A stretch of 64,000 nt of DNA from Pseudomonas paralcaligenes (lineage in GTDB: Bacteria; Pseudomonadota; Gammaproteobacteria; Pseudomonadales; Pseudomonadaceae): assembly GCF_019655855.1 (NCBI RefSeq), contig NZ_BPFX01000007.1, positions 496,001-560,000 on the forward strand, given 5' to 3'. This document shows, piece by piece, positions 9,233 to 43,216 of the stretch. Below the pieces are notes generated by a model that worked only from the letters and a program-made list of their open reading frames with translations, had not been told where the DNA came from and made no database searches. Positions within the stretch are counted from its first letter, which is position 1. Each line of letters starts with the position of its first letter. The translations under genes and the position numbers were made by a program.

Positions 9233-9247
9233 GGTCGGGCTCCCGGC

Positions 9248-10111
9248 TTACTTGCGCGCGGTCTTGGCCGGCTTGCGCGACGCCGTGCCCTTGCCCGCGG
9301 GCTTCTTCGGCTTGTCGGCAGGCTTGCCGCCGAGGCTGCGCTTGAGCAGTTCGGTGAGGTCGATGACGTCGGCGCTGCGCCGCTCTTCCTGGCCCTCGAC
9401 CCGCTCCACGTCCTCGATCTTGCCAGCCTTGGCCTTGCGCTCGACCAGCTCCATGATGCGGTCCTGGAAGCTGTCCACGTATGCCTCGGGCCGCCACTCG
9501 TCGCTCATGTCCCTGATCAGGCGCTTGGCCATGTCCAGCTCGCTCTTGGCCAGCTTGGGCCGGGTCACCGCCGGGCCCAGTTCCAGCGTTTCCAGGCCGC
9601 GCACCTCGCTGGGCCAGCGCAGCATCACCAGCACCAGCGCCGACTCCAGCGGCATCAGCGCCGCCAGGTGCTGGCGGGTGTGCAGCACGACGTGGGCCAG
9701 GGCCACCTTGCCGGTGCCGACGAGCGCCTCGCGCAGCAGCGCGTAGACCTTCTCGCCGCGACGGTCCGGGGTCAGGTAGTACGGCGTGTCGATGTTCTGC
9801 AGCGGGATCTGCTGGCTGTCGACGAAGGCGAAGATGTCGATGGTCTGGGTCGACTCCGGGTGCGCCGCGCGGATTTCCTCCTCGCTGAGCACCACGTAGC
9901 GGCCCTTCTCGTAGGCCACGCCCTTGACGATATTTTCCTTGGTGACTTCCTTGCCGGTGACCTTGTTCACCCGCTTGTAGCCGACCGGCTCCATGCTGCG
10001 CTGGTCCAGCCAGTCGAAGTCCACGCCCTGGGACGCGGTGGCCGAGGCCAGCGCGACCGGGATGTGGACCAGACCGAAGCTGATGGCGCCTTTCCAGATG
10101 GCTCGCGGCAT
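9248..10111 (-). CDS. ku: Bacterial Ku homodimeric end-binding protein
   Basis: A 287-aa bacterial Ku core (MPRAIWKGAISFGLVHIPV; then DWLDQRSMEPVGYKRVNKVTG, YVVLSEEEI and an RPEAYVDSFQDRIMELVE region) with a short lysine-rich tail (KPADKPKKPAGKGTASRKPAKTARK split by Gly/Ser) of the sort that extends DNA binding. It rings DNA ends and recruits LigD. The start at 10111 is the conserved MPRAIW; the frame remains open upstream, but that stretch overlaps the small gene at 10135 in another frame. It is followed by ligD after 15 bp. Confidence 0.96.
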   Translation of the reverse strand: MPRAIWKGAISFGLVHIPVALASATASQGVDFDWLDQRSMEPVGYKRVNKVTGKEVTKENIVKGVAYEKGRYVVLSEEEIRAAHPESTQTIDIFAFVDSQQIPLQNIDTPYYLTPDRRGEKVYALLREALVGTGKVALAHVVLHTRQHLAALMPLESALVLVMLRWPSEVRGLETLELGPAVTRPKLAKSELDMAKRLIRDMSDEWRPEAYVDSFQDRIMELVERKAKAGKIEDVERVEGQEERRSADVIDLTELLKRSLGGKPADKPKKPAGKGTASRKPAKTARK

Positions 10112-10134
10112 GGTCGTGGCTCCAGGGGTGGCGG

Positions 10135-10263
10135 CTATTCGCCCGGCACGTAGCGGAAGCTGCCGCAACGGCTGCAGCACTGGCACAGCAGGGTTTCCTT
10201 GCCGATCAGCGTGGCGACGCCAGCGGACCAGCTGCAACCTGCAATCAAGCATCGGATAGTCAT
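10135..10263 (-). CDS. 42-aa cysteine-rich small protein upstream of ku
   Basis: A 42-codon ORF starting ATG at 10263 and stopping TAG at 10135. It is preceded by GGAGG with a 7-base spacer, the best ribosome binding site in this area. The product has six cysteines (C5, C10, C27, C29, C30, C33), with CxxxxC followed 17 residues later by CQCCSRC, and a terminal FRYVPGE. This is a plausible zinc-knuckle or ribbon. It ends 23 bp before ku, so ku and ligD would be transcribed with it. I do not recognise a named family, though small Cys-rich proteins of this kind occur in pseudomonads. Function unknown. Confidence 0.6.
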   Translation of the reverse strand: MTIRCLIAGCSWSAGVATLIGKETLLCQCCSRCGSFRYVPGE

Positions 10264-10446
10264 GGGGTGCCTCCTTCGGCCGGCGGCCAAAAATGCCTGT
10301 CAATCTGTCGACCGTGGGGGCGGGAAGAAGGTTTTAGTGAAATGCTGGGCAACCGCTGCGACGGCGTAACGGCAGACACACATGCGCGGTCCGCGAACAC
10401 GAGCCGCTGAGTGCGCTGTGCGCCCCTGAAGTCGCGCGAAGGATAG

Positions 10447-10755
10447 CTATACGAGAGGCTCTGCCAGCGCCTCGGCCCGGTCCCTGAGCTGCCGAACCTC
10501 GTACAGCCGCATCAGCATGTCCTGCTCCTGCAGCAGCGCGAAGAAGATGCGGGCCCGCTCCGCCATCGCGACGCCTTCTTCGAGCAGGCGCAACGCGGCC
10601 TGGCGCTGGTCGAGGAAACCGAGCAGCTCGGCCTCCTCGCTCCAGCGGGCGATGCGCTGCCTCGCCTCGCGGGTCGGGCAGGCCAGGCCGGTGGCCAGCA
10701 GGGCGTCGAGCCACTGCCCCCAGTCTTCCAGCCAGCCCCTCAACGGATCGTTCAT
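10447..10755 (-). CDS. Hypothetical 102-aa protein, last gene of the yeh-like operon
   Basis: A 102-aa acidic protein predicted to be mostly helical (WLEDWGQWLDALLATGLAC, then EARQRIARWSEEAELLGFL, ERARIFFALLQEQDMLMRLYEV). No recognised domain. Its ATG overlaps the stop of the SWIM gene by 4 bases (ATGA), so it is translated as part of the cluster and probably works with it. After it, 10264-10446 upstream of the next block holds no gene that I can support. Confidence 0.6.
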   Translation of the reverse strand: MNDPLRGWLEDWGQWLDALLATGLACPTREARQRIARWSEEAELLGFLDQRQAALRLLEEGVAMAERARIFFALLQEQDMLMRLYEVRQLRDRAEALAEPLV

Positions 10756-12368
10756 CGGACCTCACTGAACAGATGATGCCGGCCACGGGCGTCGAACAGC
10801 GCGACCGGTGAGAAAAGGGGCGCATCGCCCTCGACGACCCAGCGGCCGAACAGCAGAACGTTTTCGCCCTCCGCCGCCGCCAGGATACGGGCGGCGCGCG
10901 GGCACCCGGCGCCAGCGGCCATCACCAGGGGAAAGCGATAGCCGTCCTCGCTGATCGCCTCGCCCAGCCAGCGCTGTCCCAGGCGCTCGAACACCGGTGC
11001 CTTGAGCAGGCGCGCGGACACCAGCCCCCAGGGCTGCGGATCGCTGCGGTAGAGCCAGGCCTGGCGATGCTCGGCGATGCGCAGCAGGCGGGCAGCAGAC
11101 GCATCGACCAGTGCCGGCAGAGCCTCCCTCGGCCAGGGGCCGATCACCCGCAGGCGCGTCCCGGCACGGGCGGAGAGCCGTCCGTCCTCGCTGACCCAGC
11201 CCCGTTCCAGCAGGCACTCCATGCCCAGCAGCTTCACCGCCGGCTGGTCGGCGAGCATCGCCTGCGCCAGCGCGCCCTCGGCGCTCCAGCCGGGATGCAG
11301 GGCCAACGAGCGGGACTCGGACAGGCTGTAGCAACGGTGATCCCCGGGAGAGACGAAGTGCAGGCGGTATCCGCGGTAGCCGCCGGCGGTCTCCCAGCAT
11401 TCGGCGCTCAGGCACAGCAGGCGCAGGTTCTCGCAGGCGGCGAACTTCTGCCGGTGCAGGCCGGCCAGCCGTGACAGCGGCTGCGGCAACGGCACCCGGG
11501 CCAGCGCACGGCGGTGGGCCAGCAGCTCCGCCAGTTGGCGACGCACCTGCCGCACCTGGCTGGCGGCCATGCCCTGGCGCTCGTCGTCGAGCAGGCCCGC
11601 CAGGCGCGCCAGCAGGCGTCCCGGCAGCGGCAGGTCGGCCTGCAGCAACTCGGTGGCCAGGGCCTGCCCACGCGCGACGAACAGGCTCGAACCGCCGCTC
11701 ATGCCGATCGCGGCCAGTTCCTCCAGCCAGCCATCGAGCGCCGCCAGTGCCTGCCGCTGGGCGTCGCTCAGCGCCTCGGCCTCCGGCTCGGCCGGCTCGA
11801 CCAGCTGCAACACGACCAGCGCCCGATGGGCGCAGCGGCTTTCCCGGCAGGAGCACAGCGACGCCGGCAGGCCACCGGCGCGCGGGATCATCAGCGTGGC
11901 CACCTCGGGATCGGCCAGCGTCGCCGACAGCTGGCGCTCATCGATCACCCATTGCGCCTCAGCACCCTGGGCCCGCCAGCGCCGGGCCTTGGTGATGGAA
12001 GCCCGCCCCAGCAGCCTCTCGCGCTCGCCGGCGTCGTCGATCAGCCAGGGCTCGCCCGCCTCCAGCTCCGGCGCAAGCGGAGCCGTTTCGGCGCCGGCGG
12101 CCAGGCGCTCGCTCAGCCCGAGCAGCAGGCCCAGTTGATGGTGGCAGACGCCGAAGGCGGGACAGCTGCATCGCAGGTGTTCGAAACCGACACCGTCCAG
12201 CTGTTGCCGGTAGCCCTCCAGTCCGGCCTCGGCGCGCGCCTCCTCCAGCAACCAGCCGGTGGGGGCCTGATCCTCCAGCAGCTTGCGCGCCCGCCGGACC
12301 AGGCCGCGATTGGCCCAGCCCACCAGGGTCTCCTCGGTGAGGCCGCGCAGCCAGGCGTGCAGGCTCAT
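10752..12368 (-). CDS. SWIM zinc-finger protein (YehQ-like)
   Basis: A 538-aa protein with two CxCxnCxH SWIM-type clusters: RCSCPAFGVCHH (C67, C69, C74, H76) and CSCRESRCAHR near residue 175. SWIM zinc fingers mediate protein or nucleic-acid contacts. The remainder is helix-rich without a named enzyme fold, and the C-terminal third carries RYRFP- and HLFSEVR-like strands. Position and partners match E. coli YehQ, the SWIM protein at the end of the yeh locus. Four-base overlaps with the VWA gene upstream and the 102-aa gene downstream show tight translational coupling. Biochemical function unknown; a scaffold or target-recognition role is inference. Confidence 0.78.
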   Translation of the reverse strand: MSLHAWLRGLTEETLVGWANRGLVRRARKLLEDQAPTGWLLEEARAEAGLEGYRQQLDGVGFEHLRCSCPAFGVCHHQLGLLLGLSERLAAGAETAPLAPELEAGEPWLIDDAGERERLLGRASITKARRWRAQGAEAQWVIDERQLSATLADPEVATLMIPRAGGLPASLCSCRESRCAHRALVVLQLVEPAEPEAEALSDAQRQALAALDGWLEELAAIGMSGGSSLFVARGQALATELLQADLPLPGRLLARLAGLLDDERQGMAASQVRQVRRQLAELLAHRRALARVPLPQPLSRLAGLHRQKFAACENLRLLCLSAECWETAGGYRGYRLHFVSPGDHRCYSLSESRSLALHPGWSAEGALAQAMLADQPAVKLLGMECLLERGWVSEDGRLSARAGTRLRVIGPWPREALPALVDASAARLLRIAEHRQAWLYRSDPQPWGLVSARLLKAPVFERLGQRWLGEAISEDGYRFPLVMAAGAGCPRAARILAAAEGENVLLFGRWVVEGDAPLFSPVALFDARGRHHLFSEVR

Positions 12369-13501
12369 GCCCCCTTCTCCGCCATGCAGTTGGCCACCCA
12401 GTCGGCCAGGTGCTCGGGCGTCATCGCCGCCACCGCCATGCCGCGCGCGACCAGTTCGCCCGCCATCGCCTGGTCGTAGGCCGGCTGTGCCTGCTCGTCC
12501 AGCGCGGCCAGGCCGAGCAGGCTGACCCCGGACTCGGCCAGGCGCGTCACGCAGCCGAGCATCCGGGCCGGGTCGGCCCCCTCGCAGAAGTCGCTGATCA
12601 GCACCAGCATGCAGCGGCTCGGCCGGGTCACCAGGGTTTCCGCGTGGGCGAGGGCCAGGCCGATGTCGGTGCCGCCGCCCAGCTGCACCGCCAGCAGCGT
12701 TTCCACCGGGTCGTCGAGACGGTCGCCGACATCCACCACCTGGGTATCGAACAGCAACATCCGCGTCTGCAGGCTGCGCAGGCGGCTGAAGATGCCGGCG
12801 ACCACCGAGGCATGGATCACCGAGCTGCTCATCGACCCGCTCTGGTCGACCACCAGGATGATCTCCCAGGGCAGCCGGCGCTGGCGCTGCGGGTTGTAGT
12901 AGAGGCGCTGCAACAGCAGCACCTGGTTTTCCAGGTCGTAGTGGCGCAGGTTGCGGCGCAGCGTCATCGACCAGTCCAGCACCGCGTGGCTGGGCCGGCC
13001 GCCCTGGGCATGGCGTATCCGCCGCCCTTCGATCCGGTTGCGCACGTTGCGCGACAGCCGCTCGGCCAGGTCGTCGCAGACCTGCCGGATGATCTGCCTG
13101 ACCTCGTCCATCAGGGCTTCCGGCAGCCAGTGGCGGAAGGTCAGCAGCGTCTGTACCAGTTCGATGTTCGGCGTGGCCCGGCGCAGCACCTCGGGGTCGG
13201 TCAGCAACGCGGTCAGGCCGTAGCGCTCGATCGCCTGGCGCTGCAGGGCCTCCACAGTGCCCTGCGGGAACAGGCGACGCACACCCTCCAGCCAGCGTAC
13301 CGCGGTCAGCCGGGAGCCTTCGCTGCCGGCACCACGCTCTTGGTCCCGCGGCCCGTGGGTGCGCTGGGCGTATTCGCGCTGGTACAGGTAGTCCAGCGCC
13401 GCATCGCGGGCGCCATCGACCTCGCTCAGCTCGCCGCCGGCGGGCTCGCTGTCCCTCCCCAGCACCAGACGCCAGCGCCGGCGCAGTTCGGCATCAGTCA
13501 T
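12365..13501 (-). CDS. VWA-domain protein (YehP-like)
   Basis: A 378-aa protein starting at ATG 13501 (MTDAELRRRWRLVLG). Residues about 1-195 are helical; about 210-378 form a von Willebrand A domain with an intact MIDAS metal site: DQSGS near 218, a threonine in GGGTDIGLAL and an aspartate in ISDFCEG. VWA proteins of this group work as adaptors for the MoxR-type ATPase encoded just upstream, as in the CoxD/CoxE and RavA/ViaA pairs. The start overlaps the DUF5682 stop by 8 bases, and its stop overlaps the SWIM start by 4. It corresponds to E. coli YehP by architecture and gene order. Confidence 0.85.
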   Translation of the reverse strand: MTDAELRRRWRLVLGRDSEPAGGELSEVDGARDAALDYLYQREYAQRTHGPRDQERGAGSEGSRLTAVRWLEGVRRLFPQGTVEALQRQAIERYGLTALLTDPEVLRRATPNIELVQTLLTFRHWLPEALMDEVRQIIRQVCDDLAERLSRNVRNRIEGRRIRHAQGGRPSHAVLDWSMTLRRNLRHYDLENQVLLLQRLYYNPQRQRRLPWEIILVVDQSGSMSSSVIHASVVAGIFSRLRSLQTRMLLFDTQVVDVGDRLDDPVETLLAVQLGGGTDIGLALAHAETLVTRPSRCMLVLISDFCEGADPARMLGCVTRLAESGVSLLGLAALDEQAQPAYDQAMAGELVARGMAVAAMTPEHLADWVANCMAEKGA

Positions 13502-15857
13502 CGCGCCCTCCATCCCAGAGCAGGCGCGCCGCACCCAGGTCCGACCGCAGCTGCGCCGCGCGCTGCAGGTCGTCGCTCGACCAGTGCCGCGACGCTGCCG
13601 GCAGGCGCGCAGCGACACCCGGCATGACATCGCCCGCCAGCTCGCTCAACTGGCGCGGCGACAGCTGGGTGAAGGCCAGGCGCAGACCCGGCAGGGCCTG
13701 GAGAAAGGTCTCCTCGTCCCAGGACAACAACATATCGCCCATACATGCCTGCAACCGCTCCTCCTGCAGCAGGCGGTGGCGGGCGACGCGCAGGATTCCG
13801 GCGACGAACCGCCCCGGGGCCTCGACGTCGACGAAGGCCTCACCTGCCGTCGCGCCCAGGGCATCGGCCACGGCCTCCACATCCATCCGCCGCCCTTCCA
13901 GCAGCACGCCATGGATCAGCCCTCTCAGCAGCGCCGAAGGGTGCATCGTCAGCATCAATTGCAACGCCTCGAAGAAGGACTCCGGCTCGCAACCCGGCGT
14001 ACCCAGGGTGACCAGGTTGAGCATGTCCACCAGGGCATCGGCCAGCTCGTCATGGTTTTCCTGGGGCAGCCCACCCTGCCAGGGCAGGCACAGGCAGATG
14101 CGCTGGAAACACAGGGCGAGCAGCCCGTCGAGCGCTTCCAGCCCCTGCCCACCCAGCGCCGAGCGCGCGTGGCGGGCGGCGTCCAGGCGCAACAGGCCAC
14201 GGCACAGTTCGAGAAGATCGCCCTCCCTTTCCAGCCAATGCTCGACCTGATGCAACAGGGCGCCGAGCAGGTCGTGCAGCCCCATCGCCAGGGCTTCGAT
14301 CAGCAGGCTCGCCGGCTCCCTGCGCTGGCGCCGGGCCTGCTCCATGCGTTCGCGGCAGCAGGCGGTCGCCGCGTCCAGCAGGCGGCTTCCATAGTGGCTG
14401 CGCTCGGTCAGCACGGCCTCCGTTTCCGGCTGCCAGCGAACCGACCACACCTCGCGCACCCGCTGCAGGTCCTGTCCCTCGGCGAAGCGCGGGCCGGCGA
14501 GCAGGGTCGCGTAGGGCACCCCGAGGAACTCCAGGCGATGCAGCATATGCGACTGCTCGCGGTGCCTGGCGCTGCGGTAGATATCCAGCGCCCGCTCGAG
14601 CGGCGCGCCGGCGGAAGATGGCAGGCGCAGGCGACGACAGTGCTGGCGGAAATCGGCCACCAGCGGCGGCACCGGCAGGCCCGCCGGCAGGCGCCCGCTC
14701 TCGTTGCCGGCGAGAAAGCGCTCGATCTCGGCCAGCAGCGTCTGTTCGCTGCCGTCCCGGGCCTGCTTGAGCACGCTGCTGAGCAGCGCCTCGCGCAGTT
14801 CCAGCCGCCCTACCCCGTGCCCGCGCAGAGCCGCCAGCCGCCTGGCCATGACCACCGCCTCCACCGCGTCCGGGAAGGCCGCGCCCAGGCGCTGCTGGCG
14901 CAGGTGCTCGACCAGCTCCAGGGCCAGGCCGGCGTGCACCTCCTGATGCACCTCGCCGGCATTCTCCCGCCGCCGCGACAGCACCGACCAGACCCGCGCC
15001 TGGTACGCGCAATCCGGGATGCCGGCGGCATAGTGGCGGGTCGCGTTGAGCCGTTGCAGCGAGTAGTTCACCAGGTGCACGCCGGCCGCATCCGCCGCCA
15101 CTTCGGGAAACGCGCCGGGCGCCTCCAGCTGCGCCAGGATGCCCAGGCAATGGAACGCGCCGCACACGACCAGGCAGCGCTTGCCCGCCGCCCGCGCCCG
15201 GTTGATCGCCACCGCCATGTGCGCTTCGCGCGCCAGGGTCAGGGCATCGACCCCGTCGCCCTCGCGCAGGTAGTGGCCCAGGTGCAGCAGGCGGACGAAG
15301 AAGTCCTCCGCCTCCGGGTAGGCGACGCCGCTTTCGAAATGGCGCTCCCACCAGGTGTCGAAATCCGCGCAACCGCTGACCGCCAGCAGCGTGGCCATGG
15401 CATCGGCCCGGACCATCGGGCGATCATCGTTGAGCGGCGGCTCCAGCTCGTCGTCCGCCTCGGCGTCCGGGTCCAGCAGCGCCTGGCGGGCCATGTAGGG
15501 CAGATCGATGAAACGGGCCTCGATGCCCAGGCGGTTGGCCTCGCGCAGCGCGACCCACTCCGGCGACATGGCGGCCATCGGCACGAAGCAGCGCGCCTGG
15601 GCGGCCTGACTGCCGGGCGACCGGGCATGGATGAACAGCGCCACCGGCGGCCGGGTCTGTTCGTCCAGCAGATGGGACAGCAGGTCGTTGGCCTCGCTGG
15701 GCCCCTCGATGAGCACCACGTCCGGGCGAACGGCCTCGATCAGCCGGCGTACCTGCCAGGCGCAATGCGGGCTGTGATGGCGGATCGGCGCCCAGATCAG
15801 CTCGGGATGGGCGGCATAGGCCGGGGGCAGCCGCGCGCAGTCCCAGGCCTCAGTCAT
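13494..15857 (-). CDS. DUF5682 family protein (YehM-like)
   Basis: A 787-aa protein starting at ATG 15857. The N-terminal domain has features shared by DUF5682 and the wider TIKI/EreA/ChaN-like fold: PIRHHSPHCAWQVRRLIE, DVVLIEGPSEAND and, near residue 230, CLVVCGAFHCLG, giving conserved His and Glu residues that could bind metal. The rest (about 300-787) is a long helical region. By analogy with fold relatives it might be a hydrolase, but catalytic activity for DUF5682 is not established. It overlaps its neighbours by 8 bases on each side, between the MoxR ATPase and the VWA protein, the same order as E. coli yehL-yehM-yehP. Confidence 0.8.
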   Translation of the reverse strand: MTEAWDCARLPPAYAAHPELIWAPIRHHSPHCAWQVRRLIEAVRPDVVLIEGPSEANDLLSHLLDEQTRPPVALFIHARSPGSQAAQARCFVPMAAMSPEWVALREANRLGIEARFIDLPYMARQALLDPDAEADDELEPPLNDDRPMVRADAMATLLAVSGCADFDTWWERHFESGVAYPEAEDFFVRLLHLGHYLREGDGVDALTLAREAHMAVAINRARAAGKRCLVVCGAFHCLGILAQLEAPGAFPEVAADAAGVHLVNYSLQRLNATRHYAAGIPDCAYQARVWSVLSRRRENAGEVHQEVHAGLALELVEHLRQQRLGAAFPDAVEAVVMARRLAALRGHGVGRLELREALLSSVLKQARDGSEQTLLAEIERFLAGNESGRLPAGLPVPPLVADFRQHCRRLRLPSSAGAPLERALDIYRSARHREQSHMLHRLEFLGVPYATLLAGPRFAEGQDLQRVREVWSVRWQPETEAVLTERSHYGSRLLDAATACCRERMEQARRQRREPASLLIEALAMGLHDLLGALLHQVEHWLEREGDLLELCRGLLRLDAARHARSALGGQGLEALDGLLALCFQRICLCLPWQGGLPQENHDELADALVDMLNLVTLGTPGCEPESFFEALQLMLTMHPSALLRGLIHGVLLEGRRMDVEAVADALGATAGEAFVDVEAPGRFVAGILRVARHRLLQEERLQACMGDMLLSWDEETFLQALPGLRLAFTQLSPRQLSELAGDVMPGVAARLPAASRHWSSDDLQRAAQLRSDLGAARLLWDGGRDD

Positions 15858-16962
15858 CCTGGGCGTCGGCAAAGTCCTGCCACTCCGGGCTGCCGCTGCG
15901 CAGCCGCCGCACCACGCGCAGGTAGTCGCGGAAGCGCCGGGCATCCTGTTCGTCGTCCTTGATCACCGTGCCCAGCATGAAGCGCGACAGGTCGCGCGGC
16001 CGCACCTCGGGCAGGCCGAAGTAGTGGCACTGCACCGCCGCGCTGAAGGCCACCGCGATGGCCTCGGCCGTGGACAGCACCGTCGTCGGCGATTCGACCG
16101 CCGTGCCCTGGACGCTGCCGGCGCGCAGCTCCTGGAACGCGGTCGCCAGCAACTGCGCCACATCGCCGCTCAACCCGGTGGCGATGCCCTGCTCGCTCAG
16201 TTGGCGGTTGACCTCGCGCTGCAGGAGTTCCTTCTGCTCCTGCAGGCGCGCCAGCGGGCGCATGGTTTCGAAATTGAAGCGGCGCTTGAGCGCCGAGGAC
16301 ATGTCGTTGACGCCGCGGTCCTTGAGGTTGGCGGTGGCGATCACGTTGAAGCCGGGCTGCGCCAGCAGGTAGGCGCCGTCGCTCTCCTTCATCTCCGGCA
16401 CCTGCAACAGGCGCTCGGAGAGGATGGGGATGAGGTTGTCCTGCACCTCGGTCGGGCAGCGGGTGATTTCCTCGAAACGCAGCAGGGCGCCACGGCTCAT
16501 GGCCCGGTGCAGCGGCCCGGGCACCAGTGCCTCGGGACCCGGCCCGGAACGCAGCAGGAGGGCGTAGTTCCAGCCGTAGCGGATGTTCTCCTCGACCACC
16601 CCGGCACTACCCTGCACGGCGAGGGTGCTATCGCCGCAAATGGCCGCCGCCAGCAGCTCCGACAGCAGCGACTTGGCCGTGCCGGGCTCACCCACCAGCA
16701 TCAGCCCACGCTGGCCGATCAGGGTGACGATGGCGCGCTCGACCACGTCGTCGTTGCCGAACACCTTGCGCAGCACCGGGGCACCGCCGATCTCGTCGCC
16801 ACCGCTGCCGAGGATGAAGGTGCGCACCATGGCCGGCGACAGGCGCCAGCCGGGCGGACGCGGGCCGCCGTCGGCCTCGGCCAGGCGCTGCAGCTCGGCG
16901 GCGTGCGCCTGCTCGGCGGGCAGGCGCTGGACCGCGTCACTTTTCGGATCGTTCCCGCTCAT
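15850..16962 (-). CDS. MoxR-type AAA+ ATPase (YehL-like)
   Basis: A 370-aa AAA+ ATPase. The start at 16962 follows GAGGAG with good spacing. Walker A is LVGEPGTAKS near residue 90; the Walker B region reads LLRFEEITRCP, with Glu where Asp is usual; sensor 1 is NVIATANLKDRG, followed by SALKRRFNFE (arginine finger). MoxR-group ATPases act as chaperones that insert cofactors or remodel complexes together with VWA partners, one of which is encoded two genes downstream. The DUF5682 start overlaps its 3' end by 8 bases. It corresponds to E. coli YehL. Confidence 0.87.
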   Translation of the reverse strand: MSGNDPKSDAVQRLPAEQAHAAELQRLAEADGGPRPPGWRLSPAMVRTFILGSGGDEIGGAPVLRKVFGNDDVVERAIVTLIGQRGLMLVGEPGTAKSLLSELLAAAICGDSTLAVQGSAGVVEENIRYGWNYALLLRSGPGPEALVPGPLHRAMSRGALLRFEEITRCPTEVQDNLIPILSERLLQVPEMKESDGAYLLAQPGFNVIATANLKDRGVNDMSSALKRRFNFETMRPLARLQEQKELLQREVNRQLSEQGIATGLSGDVAQLLATAFQELRAGSVQGTAVESPTTVLSTAEAIAVAFSAAVQCHYFGLPEVRPRDLSRFMLGTVIKDDEQDARRFRDYLRVVRRLRSGSPEWQDFADAQDD

Positions 16963-16996
16963 TCGCCTCTCCTCGTGGTGGCATTCGGCGCGGCCA

Positions 16997-19900
16997 TCAC
17001 GCCGACTCCAGTTGCAACAGCGTTTCGGCCTGGGCCAGCAAGGTGTTGAGCAAGGCGGGCGGCAGGTCCTCCATGCGCTGGCGGACATAGCCCTCCTCTT
17101 CCCGCTTGCTCACCGTGAAGGTCCCGACTTCCACTTCCTCGTCCGGATCGAAGAACACACTGATTCCGCTATGGTCGAGGCTCATCAGCCAGCGCTCGCC
17201 GTCCAGGGACCAGTAGTGCTCGTTGACCATCGCGCCATCGCCGGCCTCCCCCTTGAGGTAGCCCCAGCGCTCCAGCAGGCTGCCCAGCTTGCCACGCGAC
17301 AGGCACGCGCCCTTGGCGCGGGCGAGTTCACTGGCCTGCAGCTCCTCGGCGGAAGGTCGAACCACCACGATCTCCCATTGGCCGATCGGCGACACCAGGG
17401 CGTAGTCGGCGAAGTGTTGCACCCAGGCCGCGCGCTCGTCCTCCTCCAGTTCCAGGGGATGGGCGATATGCACCCGCGCGCCGTCCGCCAGGGCGAAGTC
17501 CCGGTCCTGCAGGTCGATCAACGCTCCGGTATCGTCCGGCCGGAAACGCGCCAATGGCTGGCCATCCGCCGACTCGGCGGCCCACACCACGCCCTGGGCG
17601 ATGCAGGCCATCAACGGATGCTCGGCGAACAGGCGGCGCCAGGTCTCGGCCGGCCAGGAGGTGCCGAGCTGCAAGGCGCGGGTCAGGCGCCTGGCCTGCT
17701 GCTTGAGCACCGGCTTGAGGTTCTTGGTCAGCGCCTTGTACTGGTTCTCCGCCAGGCTGCGCTTGTCCGGGTCCTCGCCGGCCTTGGCCTTGGGCAGGCT
17801 CTTGCCGGCCTTGCCCTTCTCGTCCAGCACCGCCAGGCTCAGGTCGGGACGGATGCGCACGGTGTAGACGGTCGGCCCCACATCCAGCTTCAGGCCGTCG
17901 CGCTGCAGTCCGAAATCGGGCACCAGCTGTTCGAGGAACTCCTCCAGGGTCATGTCCTGCTTCTGCGCCACCTCGGTGAGCGCCAGGCGGGCATTCTGCA
18001 TGATCGAATCGGAGAACTTGCCGCTTTCCCACAGCTCGCGCACCTGGGACACCCCATAGTTGCCGGGCAGCCGGCACAGCAGGCGGATGGCGGCGCTGGC
18101 CTTCTGCTTGCGCACCTTCTTCCAGTCCTTGACGGCCTTGACCAGGGCATTGGCCGCGCGCTCGTCGCCATAGGGCTCCAGCGGCAGCAGCAGCCAGTCC
18201 TGGGCGGTCGCGCCATCGGCGGCGATCCACTGCTCGACGCCGAGCAGCGCCAGGTCGCTGCGCCGCCCCGCCGGCAGGAACGCCAGGATCTGCCGGGCAC
18301 GCCGCGGCAGCACTTCTCCGCCTTCGGCGAGGATGGCCAGCAGGAACTGCCCGAGCGGCTCGCCGAGGGGCGCCAGCAGGCTGGCAAAGGCGTCGTTCCA
18401 GCATTTACCGACCGCCGAGGGGACCTTGGCGCCCCGCGCCTGGGCCTGCAGGCCCGCCAGGTCGATGCCGGCCCAGGGGTCGAGCCCCTGCAGCGGATAC
18501 CCGGCGCGCTCCAGCGCATCGAGGCTGACGCTGCGGCTGTACTCGTCGTGGGCCTTGTCGGCGATGTGCTGCGCGATCGGCTCCGCCATGGCCGGGTCCG
18601 GGGACAGGGCCATGCCGATCAGCACCGGCTTGCGGGCCTTCGGCGCGGCGTCGAGCAGGCCGCTGCGCAGCAACACCTGGGGAGCGCATCGGGCGACCAG
18701 GGATACCGCGGGCACCCGCAGCGTCTTCGAGTTGCTGGCGAAGACCCGGCTCAAGGCATCGGCACAGGCTTCGAGGCACGCATCGTCGAACAGGGGCAGC
18801 AAGGTGATCTGCGCCTTCTCGTCGAGATCGGCGAATGCCGAGGGATGGGCCAGCAGGGCGCGCCGCACGGCTTGCACGACCGCCGGACGGGGGCGCGAGC
18901 CGAGTGTCAGGAAACGGCCGGCCATCGAGGGAAGCAGCTGCAACAGCGGCGTCTGGTGGCCCCCGAGTACCACGACCACGCGCTTCAGGGAATCGTCATA
19001 TGCCTCTTCGACGTATCGATGGAAAAGCTGCGGGGCCTCGTCGAACAGCGTCTCGACAAAAGCCATCAGCCCTGCGTGCTCGGTGTCGCTGCCCAAGCCA
19101 TCATAGGCAAAGCATTTCTCTATTATTTTCAGGCGGTCGTCGGCATCGCCTGCGGCACTCCAGAGCAACGTCCAGCGCTCGATGCGATCGCGACCCCGCC
19201 AGAGGTCGCCCGCGTCCAGGCAGTCGATAAAGAGCGCGGGATAATCCCGGCTGACCTGGGTCAGTACCTCCCAGTTGCCTGGCTCCGGCACCCAGGCATC
19301 CCGGCCCCAGCCGTCCTCGTCGTCAGCATTTCTGAGGACAGTGGCCAGCTCGAGCAAACGCACCGCAGCCATGCCCGGCAACGAGGCATTGGGTGACTTC
19401 AGGTACGAGCGGAGCCGGTCCACATCCGCAACCTTATCGAGCAGCCTGAAGCACGGCCGGGCCTGCGGATCGTTGGCGAGCACCCGCACGATGAGGTCGT
19501 GCAGAGCGGCCTCGTCGAGGTGATCCGCCAGCTTCTCCAGTATCTCGGCGAAATCCCGGCTATCCGACGGGATCTTGGCAATGACCTCGCCATACCATTC
19601 CAGGGCCTTCGGCGAGTTCAGGTCCGTGCTGAATCCCGCCCCCAGCTCGAACTTGCGCTGGTGGAACATCAATGCCGCCTCCGGGCAACGGGCGTGGAAT
19701 TCGCCATTGCCCCACAGACCGGCCAGCACCTCCTTAGAGGTGCCCTCCAGGAGCCGCCTGAACCCATCCAGAGGCTCGGCGACCAGAACCGCCAGGTTGA
19801 GATCACCGAAGATTTCACTGGCGGGGAAGTCCCTCGCCGAATCCGCGCCCAGAATCTCCCTCAGGCGTGGGCTCTCGACCAGGAGCTTCAGCAGCGGCAG

Positions 19901-20638
19901 GTGGAACTGGTGCCTGACGTTTCGGGCCACGCCATAAGGGAAATCGGTGTCATCGGGACTGCGTGAGATGCTTCCTGCATTGACCAGCAGCAGATCGATC
20001 CAGCGCTCCGGAGTCACCTCGTCGAGTTGGAGCTGTTCCCGGATGATCGTCATGAACAGCCGAAGCCCGATCAGCCTTTCCACGACAAACAGAGGAAGCT
20101 CCTGCCACTCGACCAGCGCATCGCTCAGGCACGCGGGATCGGCTTGCGCCGCCAGCAGCCACTGGTGAACCGCCAACCAGCCGCCCTCGCCAGTGGCGAT
20201 ATCCCGGGCCCATGCCTTCATCAGCGTGCCCGCCACGCGCTCCCAGGCGCGCTGCCCGGCTCCGCTCGCGCTGGGCAGCCAGGTCCGGCCCAGGCTCCCG
20301 CTGCTGGCGAAGGGGCTGAACAGCAGGATGACGCGCTCCCAGCGGTCCAGCCACGCCTCGGCGGGCCGGTCGGCCAACGCCCAGCCATAGAACGCCTTGA
20401 CGCGGTCGCCGATGTAGAAGTTGGAGGCGCCCTGGTTGTGCAGATAGGCGTTCTGCGCCAGAGCCCGGCGCCACTCGTCAGGCAGGTCCGCCTGCGCCCG
20501 CCAGTAGCGCTCCACGCCGGCGAAGTCGAGCCCCGTGCCGATGGAGTGTCGCTGGTAGGCGCTGGCCAGCCGCTGCAGAAAGTCCGCCTCGTCCTTGGCC
20601 TGCGCCAGATGATGGATAAAGTCGATGTCGTCCGTCAT
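16997..20638 (-). CDS. DUF4132 protein, copy B (YehI/MolR-like)
   Basis: A 1213-aa giant protein. The C-terminal about 250 residues are the DUF4132 region (VVWAAESADGQPLARFRPDD, VHIAHPLELEEDERAAWVQH, YALVSPIGQWE, then ERWGYLKGEAGDGAMV). The N-terminal about 800 residues are helix-rich with leucine-rich HEAT-like character (inference). There is no N-terminal WGR domain of the sort found in some DUF4132 proteins. The family includes E. coli YehI and MolR. The neighbouring gene 20742-24392 is a close paralog; both end in LLNTLLAQAETL followed by a short LESA tail. It lies 34 bp upstream of the MoxR gene. Function unknown; likely a large scaffold or sensor in the system. Confidence 0.82.
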   Translation of the reverse strand: MTDDIDFIHHLAQAKDEADFLQRLASAYQRHSIGTGLDFAGVERYWRAQADLPDEWRRALAQNAYLHNQGASNFYIGDRVKAFYGWALADRPAEAWLDRWERVILLFSPFASSGSLGRTWLPSASGAGQRAWERVAGTLMKAWARDIATGEGGWLAVHQWLLAAQADPACLSDALVEWQELPLFVVERLIGLRLFMTIIREQLQLDEVTPERWIDLLLVNAGSISRSPDDTDFPYGVARNVRHQFHLPLLKLLVESPRLREILGADSARDFPASEIFGDLNLAVLVAEPLDGFRRLLEGTSKEVLAGLWGNGEFHARCPEAALMFHQRKFELGAGFSTDLNSPKALEWYGEVIAKIPSDSRDFAEILEKLADHLDEAALHDLIVRVLANDPQARPCFRLLDKVADVDRLRSYLKSPNASLPGMAAVRLLELATVLRNADDEDGWGRDAWVPEPGNWEVLTQVSRDYPALFIDCLDAGDLWRGRDRIERWTLLWSAAGDADDRLKIIEKCFAYDGLGSDTEHAGLMAFVETLFDEAPQLFHRYVEEAYDDSLKRVVVVLGGHQTPLLQLLPSMAGRFLTLGSRPRPAVVQAVRRALLAHPSAFADLDEKAQITLLPLFDDACLEACADALSRVFASNSKTLRVPAVSLVARCAPQVLLRSGLLDAAPKARKPVLIGMALSPDPAMAEPIAQHIADKAHDEYSRSVSLDALERAGYPLQGLDPWAGIDLAGLQAQARGAKVPSAVGKCWNDAFASLLAPLGEPLGQFLLAILAEGGEVLPRRARQILAFLPAGRRSDLALLGVEQWIAADGATAQDWLLLPLEPYGDERAANALVKAVKDWKKVRKQKASAAIRLLCRLPGNYGVSQVRELWESGKFSDSIMQNARLALTEVAQKQDMTLEEFLEQLVPDFGLQRDGLKLDVGPTVYTVRIRPDLSLAVLDEKGKAGKSLPKAKAGEDPDKRSLAENQYKALTKNLKPVLKQQARRLTRALQLGTSWPAETWRRLFAEHPLMACIAQGVVWAAESADGQPLARFRPDDTGALIDLQDRDFALADGARVHIAHPLELEEDERAAWVQHFADYALVSPIGQWEIVVVRPSAEELQASELARAKGACLSRGKLGSLLERWGYLKGEAGDGAMVNEHYWSLDGERWLMSLDHSGISVFFDPDEEVEVGTFTVSKREEEGYVRQRMEDLPPALLNTLLAQAETLLQLESA

Positions 20639-20741
20639 GAATCACCGTCCCGGGTAGATTTCGAAGTGCTGTTTCTCAGGGCTCGCACCGGTCGCGGCCG
20701 GTCATTCGGTCCGCGCCTCATCGGTTCACGGCGCGAGGGCA

Positions 20742-23700
20742 TCAGGCCGACTCCAGCCGCACCAGGGTCTCGGCCTGGGCCAGCAGCGTATTGAGCAGGG
20801 TCGGCGGCAGGTCCTTGAGCCGCTGCGGCACGTAGGGGCCGTCGTCGTCCTTGCGGCTGACCGTGAACGAGCCCACCTCCACCGACTCCTCGGCCTCGAA
20901 GATGACGCTGAAGCCATCGTGATCGAGGCGGATCATCCAGCGCTGGTTGTCGAGATAGGCGTAGTGGTCATCGATCATGGCGCCGTCGCCGGTATGCCCC
21001 TTGGTGTAGCCCCAGCGATCCAGCAGGCCGCCGATCTGGGCGCGGGTCACGTTGACGCCCTTGGCCCGGTCGATCTGCTCGGCGCCCAGTTCCTGTTCGG
21101 TCGGCGGGCAGACAGCTGCCTCCCATTGGCCGATGGGCGAGGTCAGCTCGTAGTCGGCCATGTGCTGCGCCCAGGCTTCGCGCTCGGCGGCATCCAGTTC
21201 CAGCGGATGGGCGATGTGCACCTGCGCATCGGCGGGCAGTTCCACCGGCGCGTCGTCGAGGCCAATCAGGACACCGGTGGCGTCCGGGCGGAAACGGACC
21301 AGGGGCTGGCCGTCCGCGTCTTCCGCGGCCCACACCACGGCCTGGCCGATACAGCTCATCAGCGGCTGCTCGACGAACAACCGGCGCCAGGTCTGCGCCG
21401 TCCAGCTGGTGCCCAGCTGGAAGTGACCGACCAGCCGCTTGCCCTGCTGCTTGAGCACAGGCTTGAGGTTCTTCGACAAGGCCTTGAACTGCGCCTCCGC
21501 CAGGTCACGCTTGGCCGGGTCCTCGCTGGCCTTGGCCTTGGGCAGGCTCTTGCCGGCCTTGCCGTTCTCGGCCACTACCACCAGGCTCATGTCCGCCGCG
21601 ATGCGCACGGTGTAGACGGTGCTGCCGACGTCCAGCCTGAGGCCGTCGCGCTGCATGCCGAAATCGGGCACCAGCAGTTCGAGGAACTCGTCCAGGTCCA
21701 TGTCCTGCTGCTGGGCGGCCTCGACCAGGATCTGCCGGGTGGTGTCCTTGAGCGCCTCGGCGAACTTGCCGTTCTCCCACAGCTCGCGCACCTGGGAAGC
21801 GCCGTAGACACCCGGAATCCGGCAGAGCGTGCGCAGCCCCAGGGCGGCCTTGGCCTTGCGCTGTTTCTTCCAGCCCTTGATGGCCTTGACCAGGGCGTTG
21901 ACCGCCCGCTCGTCCCCATACAGATCCAGCAGAGGCAGCAGCCAGTCGAACTCGGTCGAGTCCTCGCGCAGTATCCAGAACTCGACGGCGTGCAGCGCCA
22001 GGTCGCTGCACCGGCCGGCCGGCATCAGGCGCGTGATCTGGCGCACCCGGCGCGGCAGCCCGCCTTCGCCGGACTCGGCCAGCAGCGAAAGCGCATACCG
22101 CCCCAGCGCCTCGCCGAGCGCCTCGGTGAGTTGCGCGACCCGGTCGTCCCAGTACAGGTCGACGGCGGGCGCGATGGTGGCGTCGCGCGCTATCGCCTGC
22201 AGGGCCGCCAGGTCCAGGTCGAGCCAGGGGTCCAGCCCCTGGAGCGGATACTGGGCCCGCTCCAGCGCGTCCAGGCTCAGGCTGCGGCTGTAGTCGTCGT
22301 GGGCCTTGTCGTCCAGATGGCGGGCGATCAGTCCGGCCATCCCGGAGGCGCGCGACAGCGCCATGCCGGTGAGGATGGTCTTGCGCGGCTTGGGCGGTGT
22401 ATCCAGCAGTGCGCAGCGCTCGATGAGCTCAGGGCTGCAGCGGGCGATGAGCGCGGCGGCCGGAACGCGGACCGGCCTGGAGCTGCTGCCCAGCAACTGG
22501 ATCAGGGCATCCCGGCAGGCTTCGACACAGGCTTCGTCCATCAGCGGCAGCAGGCGCAGTTGCTCCTTCTGCTCGAGCGCGGAGAACGAGTCCGGGTAGG
22601 CGCTCAAGCTGCGGCGCACGGCCTTGAAGATGGCCTTGCCGGGCCGCTGGCTGGGCTTGATGAAGCGTACGGCGACCGCGGCCGTCAGCGCCTGCAGGGG
22701 CGAGTCGATGGCCCCCAGCAAGGCCGCGATGTCGGACAGGTTGTAGGGGTGCTCCTTCGCGATGTACTGCTGGAACGCTTCGGGAGCCTCGGCGTACCGG
22801 GACTCCGCGAAGCGCACCGGCTCGTCGAAACCGCGCTGCGCGTAGTGCAGGCTGCCCAGCAGCAGCCCGGCCATCCGCTGCCGGTCATCCGGGCTGGCGG
22901 CCCGCCACAGGATGGCCCAGCGCTCGAAGCTGTCGGCGCCCGACCACAGGTCATGCACGAAAAGCGCGGAGATGAACAGATGCGGATACGCCTGGCTGGC
23001 ACGTTCGAGCAACTGCCTGTTCTCGGGCTCGGCCTGCCACGCGTCACGGGCCTTGGGGTCGGCGCCGGGCTGGCGCAGCGTGACGGCCAGCTTCATCAGG
23101 CGCCTGACGGCAGCGTGCCTCAGGCTGTCGTTGGCGGCTTCCAGGTAGGCATAGAGGCGGTCGGTATCCAGCGCGTGCGAGAGAATGTCCCAGTGGACCC
23201 AGGCGCGCTCATCGTTCGCCACGACGCTGGCGATGACCTCGTGGAACTGCTCTTCGGCCAGTTGATCCTTCAGCACCTCGCACAGACGCTCGAACAGACG
23301 ATCCCCCGACGGAACCCGGCCGATGATCTGGCGATACCAGCCCACGGCCTCCGGCGAAATCGGGAAGCAATAGATCTCGCCCTTTGCGGCGAAGCGCCGC
23401 TGCTCCAGGGCCAGCGACGCGGCGGGGAACCCGGTCACGAATCGCTCGGAGCTGCGCAACCCGCCCACCACCTGGCCCGGCAGCGAGTCGAGCCAGGCCA
23501 CGAACGCCGGCAACGGTTCCGCCATCAGCACGGACAGGTCGAACATGCTGAACAGTGTGTTGCTGGCGGATTTCCTGTTGTGGTCCTCGCTGAGCAGGCC
23601 TTCGGCCAGGCGCGGGCTGACGGCGAGCAGACGCAGGGTCGGCAGGGCGAGGTTGTGGCAGAAGGCGTACATGTCCCCCCGCAGGTTCAGCCGGTAGGGC

Positions 23701-24392
23701 AGATCATCGAGGCGTGACACGAAGCTGTACAGCCAGTCTATCCAGTGGTCCGGCCCTTGCTCGCCGAGCAGCAGTTGCTCGCGGACGATGGTCAGGTACA
23801 GACGCAGGTTCAGCAGGACGTCCAGTTGGCTGGAACTCAGCTTGGGAATCCCGGCCAGCACCCGTTGCAGCCAGCCCGGATCGGCCTGGGCATCGAGCAG
23901 CCAGCGATGCAGGCCACCCCACTCGCCCTCGCCGGTGGCGAGCGCCCCGGCCCACGCCAGCATGGCGCCACGCATGACGCCTTCCCATTCGCGGGCCGGG
24001 ATCTTGCCGTCCACATAGTGGGCCCTGGGCATCCAGTTCGAGGCCAGGTAGCAGTCCGAGGTGAAGGGCGCGAGCACCACCACCAGCCGCTCCCAGCACG
24101 CCAGCCAGGCCGGCAGCGGCAGATCGCCCAGCGCCCAGCCGTAGAAGGCGCTGGAAACGGCGCTGATCGAAAAGTACTGGGCCTGCCGCTGGCCCGGGAT
24201 CATCTCCTGGGCGAGCCGCTGCCGCCATGCCTCGGGCAATGCCGCCTCACCGCGCCAGTAGCCTTCGATGCAGGCGAAGTCCAGGTCCTGGCCGACATCC
24301 CGCTCCCGATAGGCCTGCTCCAGGCGCCGCAGGAACTCGTCGTGGCCGTGGGCCTCGGCCAGATGGATGATGACCTCGAAATTGCTCGACAC
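20742..24392 (-). CDS. DUF4132 protein, copy A (YehI/MolR-like)
   Basis: A 1216-aa protein with a GTG start at 24392 preceded by AAGGAG with a 7-base spacer. It is collinear with copy B over the whole length: N-terminal FLRRLEQAYRERDVGQDLDFA versus FLQRLASAYQRHSIGTGLDFA (each quoted pair is the same alignment position), a KSLPKAKA segment, and a C-terminal DUF4132 region with VHIAHPLELDAAEREAW and TSPIGQWE. The pair is clearly a tandem duplication that has diverged. The 103-bp gap to copy B holds no gene. As the first gene of the yeh-like run it probably follows a promoter in the gap 24393-24553. Confidence 0.82.
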   Translation of the reverse strand: MSSNFEVIIHLAEAHGHDEFLRRLEQAYRERDVGQDLDFACIEGYWRGEAALPEAWRQRLAQEMIPGQRQAQYFSISAVSSAFYGWALGDLPLPAWLACWERLVVVLAPFTSDCYLASNWMPRAHYVDGKIPAREWEGVMRGAMLAWAGALATGEGEWGGLHRWLLDAQADPGWLQRVLAGIPKLSSSQLDVLLNLRLYLTIVREQLLLGEQGPDHWIDWLYSFVSRLDDLPYRLNLRGDMYAFCHNLALPTLRLLAVSPRLAEGLLSEDHNRKSASNTLFSMFDLSVLMAEPLPAFVAWLDSLPGQVVGGLRSSERFVTGFPAASLALEQRRFAAKGEIYCFPISPEAVGWYRQIIGRVPSGDRLFERLCEVLKDQLAEEQFHEVIASVVANDERAWVHWDILSHALDTDRLYAYLEAANDSLRHAAVRRLMKLAVTLRQPGADPKARDAWQAEPENRQLLERASQAYPHLFISALFVHDLWSGADSFERWAILWRAASPDDRQRMAGLLLGSLHYAQRGFDEPVRFAESRYAEAPEAFQQYIAKEHPYNLSDIAALLGAIDSPLQALTAAVAVRFIKPSQRPGKAIFKAVRRSLSAYPDSFSALEQKEQLRLLPLMDEACVEACRDALIQLLGSSSRPVRVPAAALIARCSPELIERCALLDTPPKPRKTILTGMALSRASGMAGLIARHLDDKAHDDYSRSLSLDALERAQYPLQGLDPWLDLDLAALQAIARDATIAPAVDLYWDDRVAQLTEALGEALGRYALSLLAESGEGGLPRRVRQITRLMPAGRCSDLALHAVEFWILREDSTEFDWLLPLLDLYGDERAVNALVKAIKGWKKQRKAKAALGLRTLCRIPGVYGASQVRELWENGKFAEALKDTTRQILVEAAQQQDMDLDEFLELLVPDFGMQRDGLRLDVGSTVYTVRIAADMSLVVVAENGKAGKSLPKAKASEDPAKRDLAEAQFKALSKNLKPVLKQQGKRLVGHFQLGTSWTAQTWRRLFVEQPLMSCIGQAVVWAAEDADGQPLVRFRPDATGVLIGLDDAPVELPADAQVHIAHPLELDAAEREAWAQHMADYELTSPIGQWEAAVCPPTEQELGAEQIDRAKGVNVTRAQIGGLLDRWGYTKGHTGDGAMIDDHYAYLDNQRWMIRLDHDGFSVIFEAEESVEVGSFTVSRKDDDGPYVPQRLKDLPPTLLNTLLAQAETLVRLESA

Positions 24393-24540: not shown

Positions 24541-24559
24541 ACTTGACGTAGCGTCAAGT
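24541..24559. promoter_or_regulatory. Perfect 8-bp inverted repeat at the end of the membrane ATPase gene
   Basis: ACTTGACG-TAG-CGTCAAGT, a perfect inverted repeat with a 3-bp spacer. It overlaps the stop codon of the upstream ATPase gene and lies about 150 bp before the GTG of the first DUF4132 gene. It could be an operator for the HTH protein encoded upstream, or an RNA hairpin. No T-run follows, so a simple intrinsic terminator is unlikely. Confidence 0.35.
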
Positions 24560-26719
24560 CGTTCCGCTGGAAGCCCTGGAAAGGTTGACCAGCTCCTGTT
24601 GCAGCAGCAGCCGCAGCTCCTCCCGGTCGAACTGCCGGGCGAACAGGGGGACGGCGAAGGCGTAGCCGGTTTCCGTGCGCTTGAGGACGAAGCCGAGCAG
24701 CAGTCGCGCCAGGGAGTGCTTGAGAGCGTCGACCTCGGCGTGGCGCCCGCTGGCGCGGATCAGCGCGACCAGGTTGGCCAGGCTGGTGCGGCCATGGTAG
24801 GCGGTGTGGTAGACGACGATCCGGTCCAGGCGGCAGGCGTTCTCGTCGTGGCTGAGCCGGGCCCAGCCCGCCAGGGCGTCCTGCACCGCCTGGGAGGCCA
24901 GCGCCTTGGTCAGGTGCGCGCGCTCCACCACGGAGGCACCGGGCCCCATGGCTTCCAGGCATTCCTGGCAGATGATCGCCACCAGGTTGGCGCGCTGGCC
25001 GCTGGCTTCCACCAGTTCGTCGACCAGCGTGCTGCTGGCGAAGCCGAGGCGCAGGCGGGCCAGGGGGATGGTGGCCAGCTCCCGGCAGGCATCGGCCTCC
25101 AGGCCGCCGATGGTGATGACCTCGCCGAAGTTGCGCAGCGGCGACTGGTAGTCGAGCACCGCCGTGGCGTAGAGGTCCCAGAACCCCGCCAGCATGAACC
25201 AGCAGCGCCCCTCCTCGCTCAGCGCGCGCAGGGTGGAGAGCTGCGGGTAGCCGTGGCCGGACTCGTCGCGGAAGAACAGGTCGGCCTCGTCGATCAGCAG
25301 GAAGACGCGCTTGCCCTCGTGGCTCGCCACCACATGCTCGATGATCCGCTCCAGAGGGGTTTCCGCCGGCAGGCCGAACTGCAGGGCCAGGCGCGGCGCC
25401 AGCCGGTGGTCGCGCAGGGAAATGTAGTGGCAGACCATCAGCGGATGGTTCTGCAGGCGTCGCTGCACTGCCTTCAGCAGGCTGCTCTTGCCCAGCTGGC
25501 GCCCGCCCACCACCAGGTAGTTGGAGGGCTCCCGGTTGAGCACGCGGGCCAGCAGGTGGGCGCGGCCGAAGAAGGAGTCCGCGCGCACCACGCCACCGCG
25601 CGTCTGGTAGGGGGAGATGCGGGTCAGGCGCAGCTGGGCGGCGAGCAGGCGCAGGAGCACTTCGCCGGGCTTGCGCCCCAGCAGCCATTCCGTCTGGCTC
25701 GGGCTGTCCAGCGCGACGAACAGGTTGGCGTGGTCGGCGCAGAACGTCTCCAGTTCCTCCTGCCCCTCGGCGGTCGGCACCAGCATCACGTCCAGCCCGG
25801 TCTGTACCGCGCGCAGGTGGTGGACGATCTGCTCGGCGGCCATGCCGGCGGCCGGCAGGTACACCAGGCAGCGGTCCAGGGCGAACGGCAGGTCGGCGGT
25901 GAAGCGCCACTCGAACACCTGCCCGGGCAGCGACCAGCCCGGGCTCGGCTGCAAGTTGGCACCGAGCTTGAGCGCCAGCTGCGCCACCCGCGCCTCGCCG
26001 TCGGCCGCAGCGCAAGCGAGCGCCTGCTGCCAGCTGGAAGGCGTGACGCCCGCGGCCTGCAGGGTGGTGGCACGGCGCCCGAGCATGCCCAGCAGCCGGT
26101 CGAGCTTGGCCAGGCGCTCCAGCGGCGTGCTCAACAGGGCCTTCGGGCGCATCTGCACCGGTCCCAGCAGCGGATGGCGGAACAGCAGCAGCAGGCCGGC
26201 GATGACGAACAGCAGGAAGCAGATGATCACCAGCCACTTCAGGTCCAGGACCAGCGGGCTCTCGCCGCCGCTGCGCTGGCAGCTGATGGGCAGGTAGCGG
26301 GTCGAGATCGGCGGCACGCCGGGCCGGCAGACCCAGCTGTCGTCGCTGCGGGAGAAGTCGAGGATCACCTGCTTGCCGGCCAGGCCGCCCAGTTCGTCGC
26401 GGTCGGCAATGTCGGCCGCCAGGCGGTACGGCTGCGGCGAGCTGACGCTGACCAGCGGGTCGTCGATCGGTGGCCGGTAGGTCTCGATGTCCTTGGGCCA
26501 GCCGTCTTCGATGGTGCGGGCCTCGGCCATCACCGTGCGCCACACCAGCAGCTCGTTCCACACCCGGCTGAGGTTGGCGGTGCCAAGCGCGTAGTCGCGG
26601 GTGAGGGGGTTGTACTGCGGCGTGAGCAGGGCGCTGGCGACGAACAGGGTGACCAGCGCGATGATCACTCGCCGGCGCGGCGTGGCCTCGGCCAGGCGGT
26701 CGATCAGGTAGCGCAGCAT
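24554..26719 (-). CDS. Membrane-anchored STAND/AAA-like P-loop ATPase
   Basis: A 721-aa protein. A transmembrane helix near residues 18-33 (RRVIIALVTLFVASALL) and a second near 167-187 (WLVIICFLLFVIAGLLLLF) bracket a domain of about 130 residues, probably periplasmic. The cytoplasmic part has a linker region (about 200-380) and an ATPase domain: FFGRAHLLARVL (STAND/AAA N-terminal helix), Walker A GGRQLGKSSLL and Walker B RVFLLIDEADLFF. The C-terminal part is winged-helix-like (inference). It resembles ATPases of the AAA_35/novel STAND type, which often act as switchable sensors. Its ATG lies inside the 3' end of the HTH gene (16-base overlap). A link to the yeh-like genes 161 bp downstream is suggested by direction and proximity only. 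Confidence 0.7.
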   Translation of the reverse strand: MLRYLIDRLAEATPRRRVIIALVTLFVASALLTPQYNPLTRDYALGTANLSRVWNELLVWRTVMAEARTIEDGWPKDIETYRPPIDDPLVSVSSPQPYRLAADIADRDELGGLAGKQVILDFSRSDDSWVCRPGVPPISTRYLPISCQRSGGESPLVLDLKWLVIICFLLFVIAGLLLLFRHPLLGPVQMRPKALLSTPLERLAKLDRLLGMLGRRATTLQAAGVTPSSWQQALACAAADGEARVAQLALKLGANLQPSPGWSLPGQVFEWRFTADLPFALDRCLVYLPAAGMAAEQIVHHLRAVQTGLDVMLVPTAEGQEELETFCADHANLFVALDSPSQTEWLLGRKPGEVLLRLLAAQLRLTRISPYQTRGGVVRADSFFGRAHLLARVLNREPSNYLVVGGRQLGKSSLLKAVQRRLQNHPLMVCHYISLRDHRLAPRLALQFGLPAETPLERIIEHVVASHEGKRVFLLIDEADLFFRDESGHGYPQLSTLRALSEEGRCWFMLAGFWDLYATAVLDYQSPLRNFGEVITIGGLEADACRELATIPLARLRLGFASSTLVDELVEASGQRANLVAIICQECLEAMGPGASVVERAHLTKALASQAVQDALAGWARLSHDENACRLDRIVVYHTAYHGRTSLANLVALIRASGRHAEVDALKHSLARLLLGFVLKRTETGYAFAVPLFARQFDREELRLLLQQELVNLSRASSGTT

Positions 26720-43202: not shown

Positions 43203-43216
43203 TATCCAAAGCCTAA

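Follow-up and report, generated by a model that had tools for sequence, protein, structure and literature searches.

In the NorQ/NorD pair, metal insertion is made possible by ATP-driven remodelling of the VWA protein (PMC13036017), and the metal ion-dependent adhesion site (MIDAS) of such VWA proteins is thought to bind the client (PMC9976466). YehL of E. coli has been described as a distinct subfamily of the MoxR AAA+ ATPases (PMC3893208). An open-access literature search found no paper on DUF5682 or DUF5691, and none that studies the function of yehL, yehM and yehP together. Here, we analysed a stretch of 64,000 nucleotides from Pseudomonas paralcaligenes (the window; NZ_BPFX01000007.1, positions 496,001 to 560,000), which holds an intact copy of the widespread, uncharacterised yehI-L-M-P-Q cassette. 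Somewhat short of an even chance, yet preferred, is the reading that its MoxR/VWA motor matures or metal-loads a predicted TIKI-like DUF5682 hydrolase, with the SWIM and DUF4132 proteins recruiting the targets. The genes of the cassette, in transcription order, are as follows.

20742-24392, minus strand: DUF4132 protein A, yehI-like, 1216 amino acids (aa), GTG start (Pfam DUF4132, E 1.1e-33)
16997-20638, minus strand: DUF4132 protein B, yehI-like, 1213 aa (Pfam DUF4132, E 2.1e-35)
15850-16962, minus strand: MoxR AAA+ ATPase, YehL orthologue, 370 aa (Pfam AAA_5, E 2.6e-34; Walker A GEPGTAKS)
13494-15857, minus strand: DUF5682 protein, YehM orthologue, 787 aa (Pfam DUF5682, E 2e-113)
12365-13501, minus strand: VWA_CoxE protein, YehP orthologue, 378 aa (Pfam, E 2.7e-47; MIDAS DQSGS)
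10752-12368, minus strand: SWIM-type zinc-finger protein, YehQ orthologue, short form, 538 aa (two CxCx(n)CxH motifs)
10447-10755, minus strand: helical protein of 102 aa, by homology the SWIM protein's C-terminal domain on a separate gene

Each of the seven frames is open, with no internal stop. The first genes are separated by gaps of 103 and 34 bases and the rest overlap by 8, 8, 4 and 4 bases; an earlier, sequence-only reading of this DNA had listed the same one-strand gene set and order, and recomputation from the ATPase gene onward gave the overlaps it had reported. Its equation of the set with E. coli yehI-L-M-P-Q is borne out by gene-by-gene homology and adjacency, the five families, their order and their strand being common to both. 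BLASTP identities were 46% for MoxR/YehL (over 363 aa), 37% for VWA/YehP, 29% for DUF5682/YehM, 26% for SWIM/YehQ (over 389 aa, E 2e-11) and, in the C-terminal part only, 29% for DUF4132/YehI, with E values from 2e-11 to 1e-106 across the five counterparts. The yehM/yehP and yehP/yehQ overlaps of E. coli, 8 and 4 bases, are those of the window. The order in MG1655 is yehF, yehH (a pseudogene), yehI, yehK, yehL, yehM, yehP, yehQ. In contrast to E. coli, the window lacks yehK, which there lies between yehI and yehL and whose hidden Markov model matches the E. coli locus only, and it carries a separate gene for the SWIM C-terminal domain, of which none was detected within or behind YehQ. The two DUF4132 giants singled out earlier are both present and intact in the window, whereas E. 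coli has yehI plus the yehH pseudogene; since pieces of yehH match the DUF4132 model, the pairing itself is not peculiar to the window.

By alignment, the window MoxR protein is nearer to YehL than to RavA and belongs to the YehL subfamily; it gave no significant alignment with RavA, the other MoxR protein of E. coli, and the window VWA protein aligns to YehP, not to ViaA. The MoxR/VWA pairing noted in the sequence-only reading stands; the genes adjoin and their motifs are intact. Walker A is kept in 97/97 MoxR relatives and the MIDAS in 98/98 VWA proteins. The nearest AAA sequence with a solved structure is that of midasin (E 4e-09), a ribosome-assembly remodeller. Most likely, YehL and YehP would work together as an ATP-driven remodelling motor like NorQ/NorD and RavA/ViaA, and the analogy with NorQ/NorD, carried over to this pair, would make YehM the client.

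The DUF5682 protein (YehM) looks, in models, like a TIKI/ChaN-like N-terminal domain (about residues 1-250) followed by a helical C-terminal domain, in agreement with the hydrolase-like fold suspected earlier for the set. Its modelled N-terminal fold appears to resemble the TIKI superfamily (ChaN, TraB/PrgY, erythromycin esterase), and two histidines and one glutamate (H28, H236 and E51, all invariant) seem to be placed as in the TIKI motif. In contrast to that superfamily, arginine (R26) stands in the position of the first glutamate of the motif and the helical C-terminal domain is long; the sequence comparison with TIKI proteins was borderline. Across the 111 rows compared, the invariant residues of the pocket are all kept save for one E211 to D change. 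As the most likely client, YehM, with its N-domain like a metal-dependent hydrolase, would be remodelled by the motor, probably to load metal or to switch YehM on. Fusions of DUF5682 with VWA in P0042 and L126 suggest contact between the two.

The linkage of the cassette was observed in 80 loci chosen by DUF5682 similarity alone, 16 of which were dropped for having less than 3 kb before or less than 7.5 kb after the gene. Whether the genes are scattered in other genomes had been named beforehand as a test of the sequence-only reading. Of the 64 loci that remained, 55 have the complete five-family set within the stretch (either strand counted), though 6 have DUF5682 only; 3 miss at least one family. 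The loci span Gammaproteobacteria, Alphaproteobacteria, Bacillota/Clostridia, Planctomycetota, Verrucomicrobiota and others, and the order differs in Bacillota, where DUF4132 stands behind VWA or behind SWIM. Pairwise distances of the five proteins correlated with r 0.88-0.96 over 70 loci, two near-duplicate loci having been dropped, and none of 500 permutations reached as high a value for any pair; therefore, the proteins are inherited as a set, a result that says nothing of contact. DUF5682 genes with the rest of the cassette absent from the available stretch occur at L066, L071, L075, L076, L122 and L125 (Brachyspira, other spirochaetes, Planctomycetaceae, Blastocatellia), and these are possibly a motor-independent form or have their motor encoded elsewhere. 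With the window's own genome counted in each case, DUF5682 was found in 6/298 genomes of the genus, 4/115 relatives, 14/369 in the class, 12 of these scoring above the family cut-off, and 12/299 in the phylum.

A second, higher-scoring DUF5682 group of 14 loci keeps MoxR-DUF5682-VWA wherever the contig allows. A SWIM protein is present in 9 of these loci, and a protein of the DUF5691 cluster stands beside MoxR in 7 (Pfam DUF5691, E 1.9e-107, checked on one cluster member). DUF4132 was not found adjoining the core in this type, and DUF5691 takes its place. The SWIM proteins of the second type show a relation to that of the window that extends past the zinc finger (hhalign, 248 columns, E 7e-13; 0.31 for a VWA control). 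One genome (G638; L032, L058) carries both cassette types, and another (G879; L041, L042) has one of each DUF5682 group.

The window SWIM protein falls below the Pfam SWIM cut-off (E 0.38), whereas Pfam does call YehQ SWIM; the assignment is made because of its YehQ homology and its two CxCx(n)CxH motifs at residues 67 and 172. Small helical open reading frames stand behind the SWIM genes in many loci, and a profile was built from 18 of them, chosen by eye. It matched long SWIM proteins twice, at the extreme C-terminus (E 8.6e-7) and in a helical domain further inside (E 3.4e-7); the controls gave E 0.098-0.57 (four other families) and 0.31 (reversed sequences). In alignment, short SWIM proteins cover columns 30-598 of the long form (732 columns) and thus lack just its C-terminal end. 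The count took SWIM proteins from 500 aa upward whose gene had over 400 bases of sequence behind it, and called those under 640 aa short; a small gene followed 18/22 short proteins and 0/54 long ones. Since the profile itself included 17 of these 18 small genes, the independent evidence is the 0/54 and the C-terminal matches in long proteins, which in a search of 78 proteins amounted to 36/54 with any positive score and 14/54 at E <=1e-3 (best 7e-16). By homology, then, the 102-aa gene encodes a C-terminal domain that has split off from the SWIM protein. The earlier view of it as an added partner does not hold, and a new partner was likewise rejected as its identity, owing to this homology with the C-terminus of long forms. 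Short proteins with no counted small gene are those of L058, L065, L107 and E. coli; at L058 a small-gene match exists, with an overlap that exceeds the limit set for counting. The split thus arose more than once or was reversed.

DUF4132 proteins A and B are 50% identical over their length and therefore reflect a tandem duplication; several loci carry at least two copies. Judged from its homologue P0126 (AlphaFold2 model, predicted local distance difference test score 91, compared by Foldseek), protein B models as a helical solenoid with a C-terminal alpha/beta domain. This agrees with the large scaffold-like proteins described in the sequence-only reading; the solenoid, like the DUF5682 N-domain fold, is taken from models. 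The DUF4132 solenoids, together with the SWIM protein (two pieces here), may bring in nucleic acid or protein targets. A bolder form of this proposal, possible but somewhat unlikely, would make DUF5682 a TIKI-fold metallohydrolase served by the yeh cassette as its dedicated MoxR/VWA metal-insertion or activation machine, a widespread ATP-gated complex that would reach targets via helical scaffolds able to replace one another (DUF4132 or DUF5691) and via a one- or two-protein SWIM module.

Two genes lie upstream of the cassette.

24554-26719, minus strand: AAA_22/STAND-like protein of 721 aa, directly upstream of the cassette (AAA_22, E 1.8e-07)
26704-27921, minus strand: 405-aa protein with a possible, weak N-terminal helix-turn-helix (HTH_3, E 0.02, under the cut-off)

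They overlap by 16 bases. G638 has the cassette with the 102-aa gene, the metH side and both upstream genes, the 405-aa protein being 78% identical over 402 aa and the 721-aa protein 65% identical at the same place. As the 721-aa gene occurs in 2/298 genus genomes, the window's own and G638 only, it is a probable linked component of this subtype only, and the 405-aa protein is a possible regulator; judging from these two genomes, both may regulate or extend the subtype. A 319-aa protein at 29354-30313 has a very weak TerB-like match (E 0.15); at the corresponding position G638 has a stretch that is 40% identical.

Directly adjoining the cassette, and encoded on its strand, are genes for Ku and DNA ligase D (non-homologous end joining; 6722-10303). 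Two sister genomes keep this left flank, one up to 10.3 kb and the other up to 10.1 kb; the right flank (metH side) is kept from 30.4 kb in one, on another contig, and in the other the right side is matched only from 45.3 kb on. Both sisters thus lack the cassette next to these flanks. A clean empty site was rejected; the flanks of sister genome G013 sit on different contigs, so only absence beside the same flanks can be said. A functional tie to Ku/LigD was rejected too, and the adjacency looks accidental, because the pair is kept without the cassette in the sisters and no Ku or LigD was found in 108 related loci. Farther out, a 433-aa protein at 1858-3159, which is not linked to the cassette, has leucine-rich-like repeats at its start and a second half matching the PADLOC mad6 (E 2e-23) and PD-T4-6 models. 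A region of lower GC at 43113-44151 contains tRNA-Ser(cga), two small genes resembling a toxin-antitoxin pair (no PADLOC match) and an 81-aa fragment resembling the end of a tyrosine recombinase, all named by eye.

The sequence-only reading had likened the set to conflict or stress systems. In a conflict or anti-phage system the motor would gate a hydrolase effector that damages the cell or the invader upon infection, which we consider very improbable for this cassette. The patchy spread in the genus, the 10.3-30.4 kb stretch missing in the two sisters, the STAND-like upstream gene and the MoxR/VWA conflict systems on record (PMC7159879) would all suit it. Against this, none of the seven cassette proteins had a match in PADLOC-DB 2023 at E 0.01, nor had the upstream genes, and the 25 largest neighbour-gene clusters, judged by eye, gave no recurrent nuclease or toxin partner. 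Furthermore, yehM DNA is present in 5284/5426 complete E. coli genomes (at least 80% of yehM in 5166), while it is rare on plasmids (35/72,556 records, some chromosome-sized) and was seen in 1/50,697 phage records, as a partial match; the proposed resemblance to conflict systems is not supported. The bpMoxR-VWA-beta-propeller ternary systems of PMC7159879 share MoxR and VWA with the cassette. However, the window MoxR scored 22.3 bits against a bpMoxR cut-off of 27, no beta-propeller Pfam match was found among the seven proteins at E 0.01, and that paper mentions none of WGR, SWIM, molR, DUF4132, TIKI or YehL; membership was rejected on these grounds. The whole yehI-Q stretch is at least 80% covered in one place in 3976 of the complete E. 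coli genomes; loss or divergence is thus more frequent at the yehI end than in yehM. A resistance transposon within the DUF4132 region is reported for 184 ST131 isolates (PMC9334617); with yehM in most genomes, the set is therefore common yet dispensable in E. coli. A conditional maintenance role fits this distribution better than a variable defence island, while an accessory role stays possible given how rare the set is in Pseudomonas; the patchy spread within the genus would suit any type of accessory system.

It is likewise unlikely, though less so, that the cassette is a DNA-damage or nucleic-acid response machine, in which SWIM and DUF4132 (with WGR in some relatives) would bind DNA or RNA and the motor would strip or repair proteins there. 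The SWIM proteins themselves, WGR adjoining DUF4132 (YehF) or fused with it (P0179), and midasin as the nearest solved AAA sequence speak for such a role, as does a Deinococcus DUF4132 gene, drA0166, induced on depletion of the DNA-damage repressor DdrO (PMC8533742). A stress role for the cassette is possible, and this induction is the one published hint of it that the literature search gave. The accidental look of the Ku/LigD adjacency counts against it, and LexA-type control was rejected, as the window holds no exact CTGT-N8-ACAG site (0.44 expected by chance). The name MolR gives no help either, because molybdate genes did not respond, according to PMC8533742. A different assignment within the motor scheme, with DUF4132 (or the SWIM protein) as the client and DUF5682 as a structural adaptor without activity, appears quite improbable. 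DUF4132 is often multiplied and stands directly upstream of MoxR in the window, and DUF5682 has lost the first Glu of the TIKI motif; yet the second cassette type has DUF5691 instead of DUF4132 next to its core, and the DUF5682 pocket is conserved.

The preferred reading, a MoxR/VWA motor acting on the putative DUF5682 hydrolase, concerns genes (yehL-M-P-Q) present in nearly all E. coli genomes examined and in many phyla. With YehM proposed as client, a metal site predicted and a SWIM subunit that is split or fused, the anonymous operon becomes directly testable in a laboratory strain, and, if the reading is true, a hydrolase would join the few known clients of MoxR/VWA motors. Like NorQ/NorD, CbbQ/CbbO and RavA/ViaA, the cassette sets a MoxR AAA+ ATPase beside a VWA protein with an intact MIDAS; unlike them, it has no known client gene of those systems. 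The locus is ordinary as a further copy of a known but unnamed operon; its interest lies in the specific client hypothesis, the re-reading of the 102-aa gene and the two exchangeable architectures.
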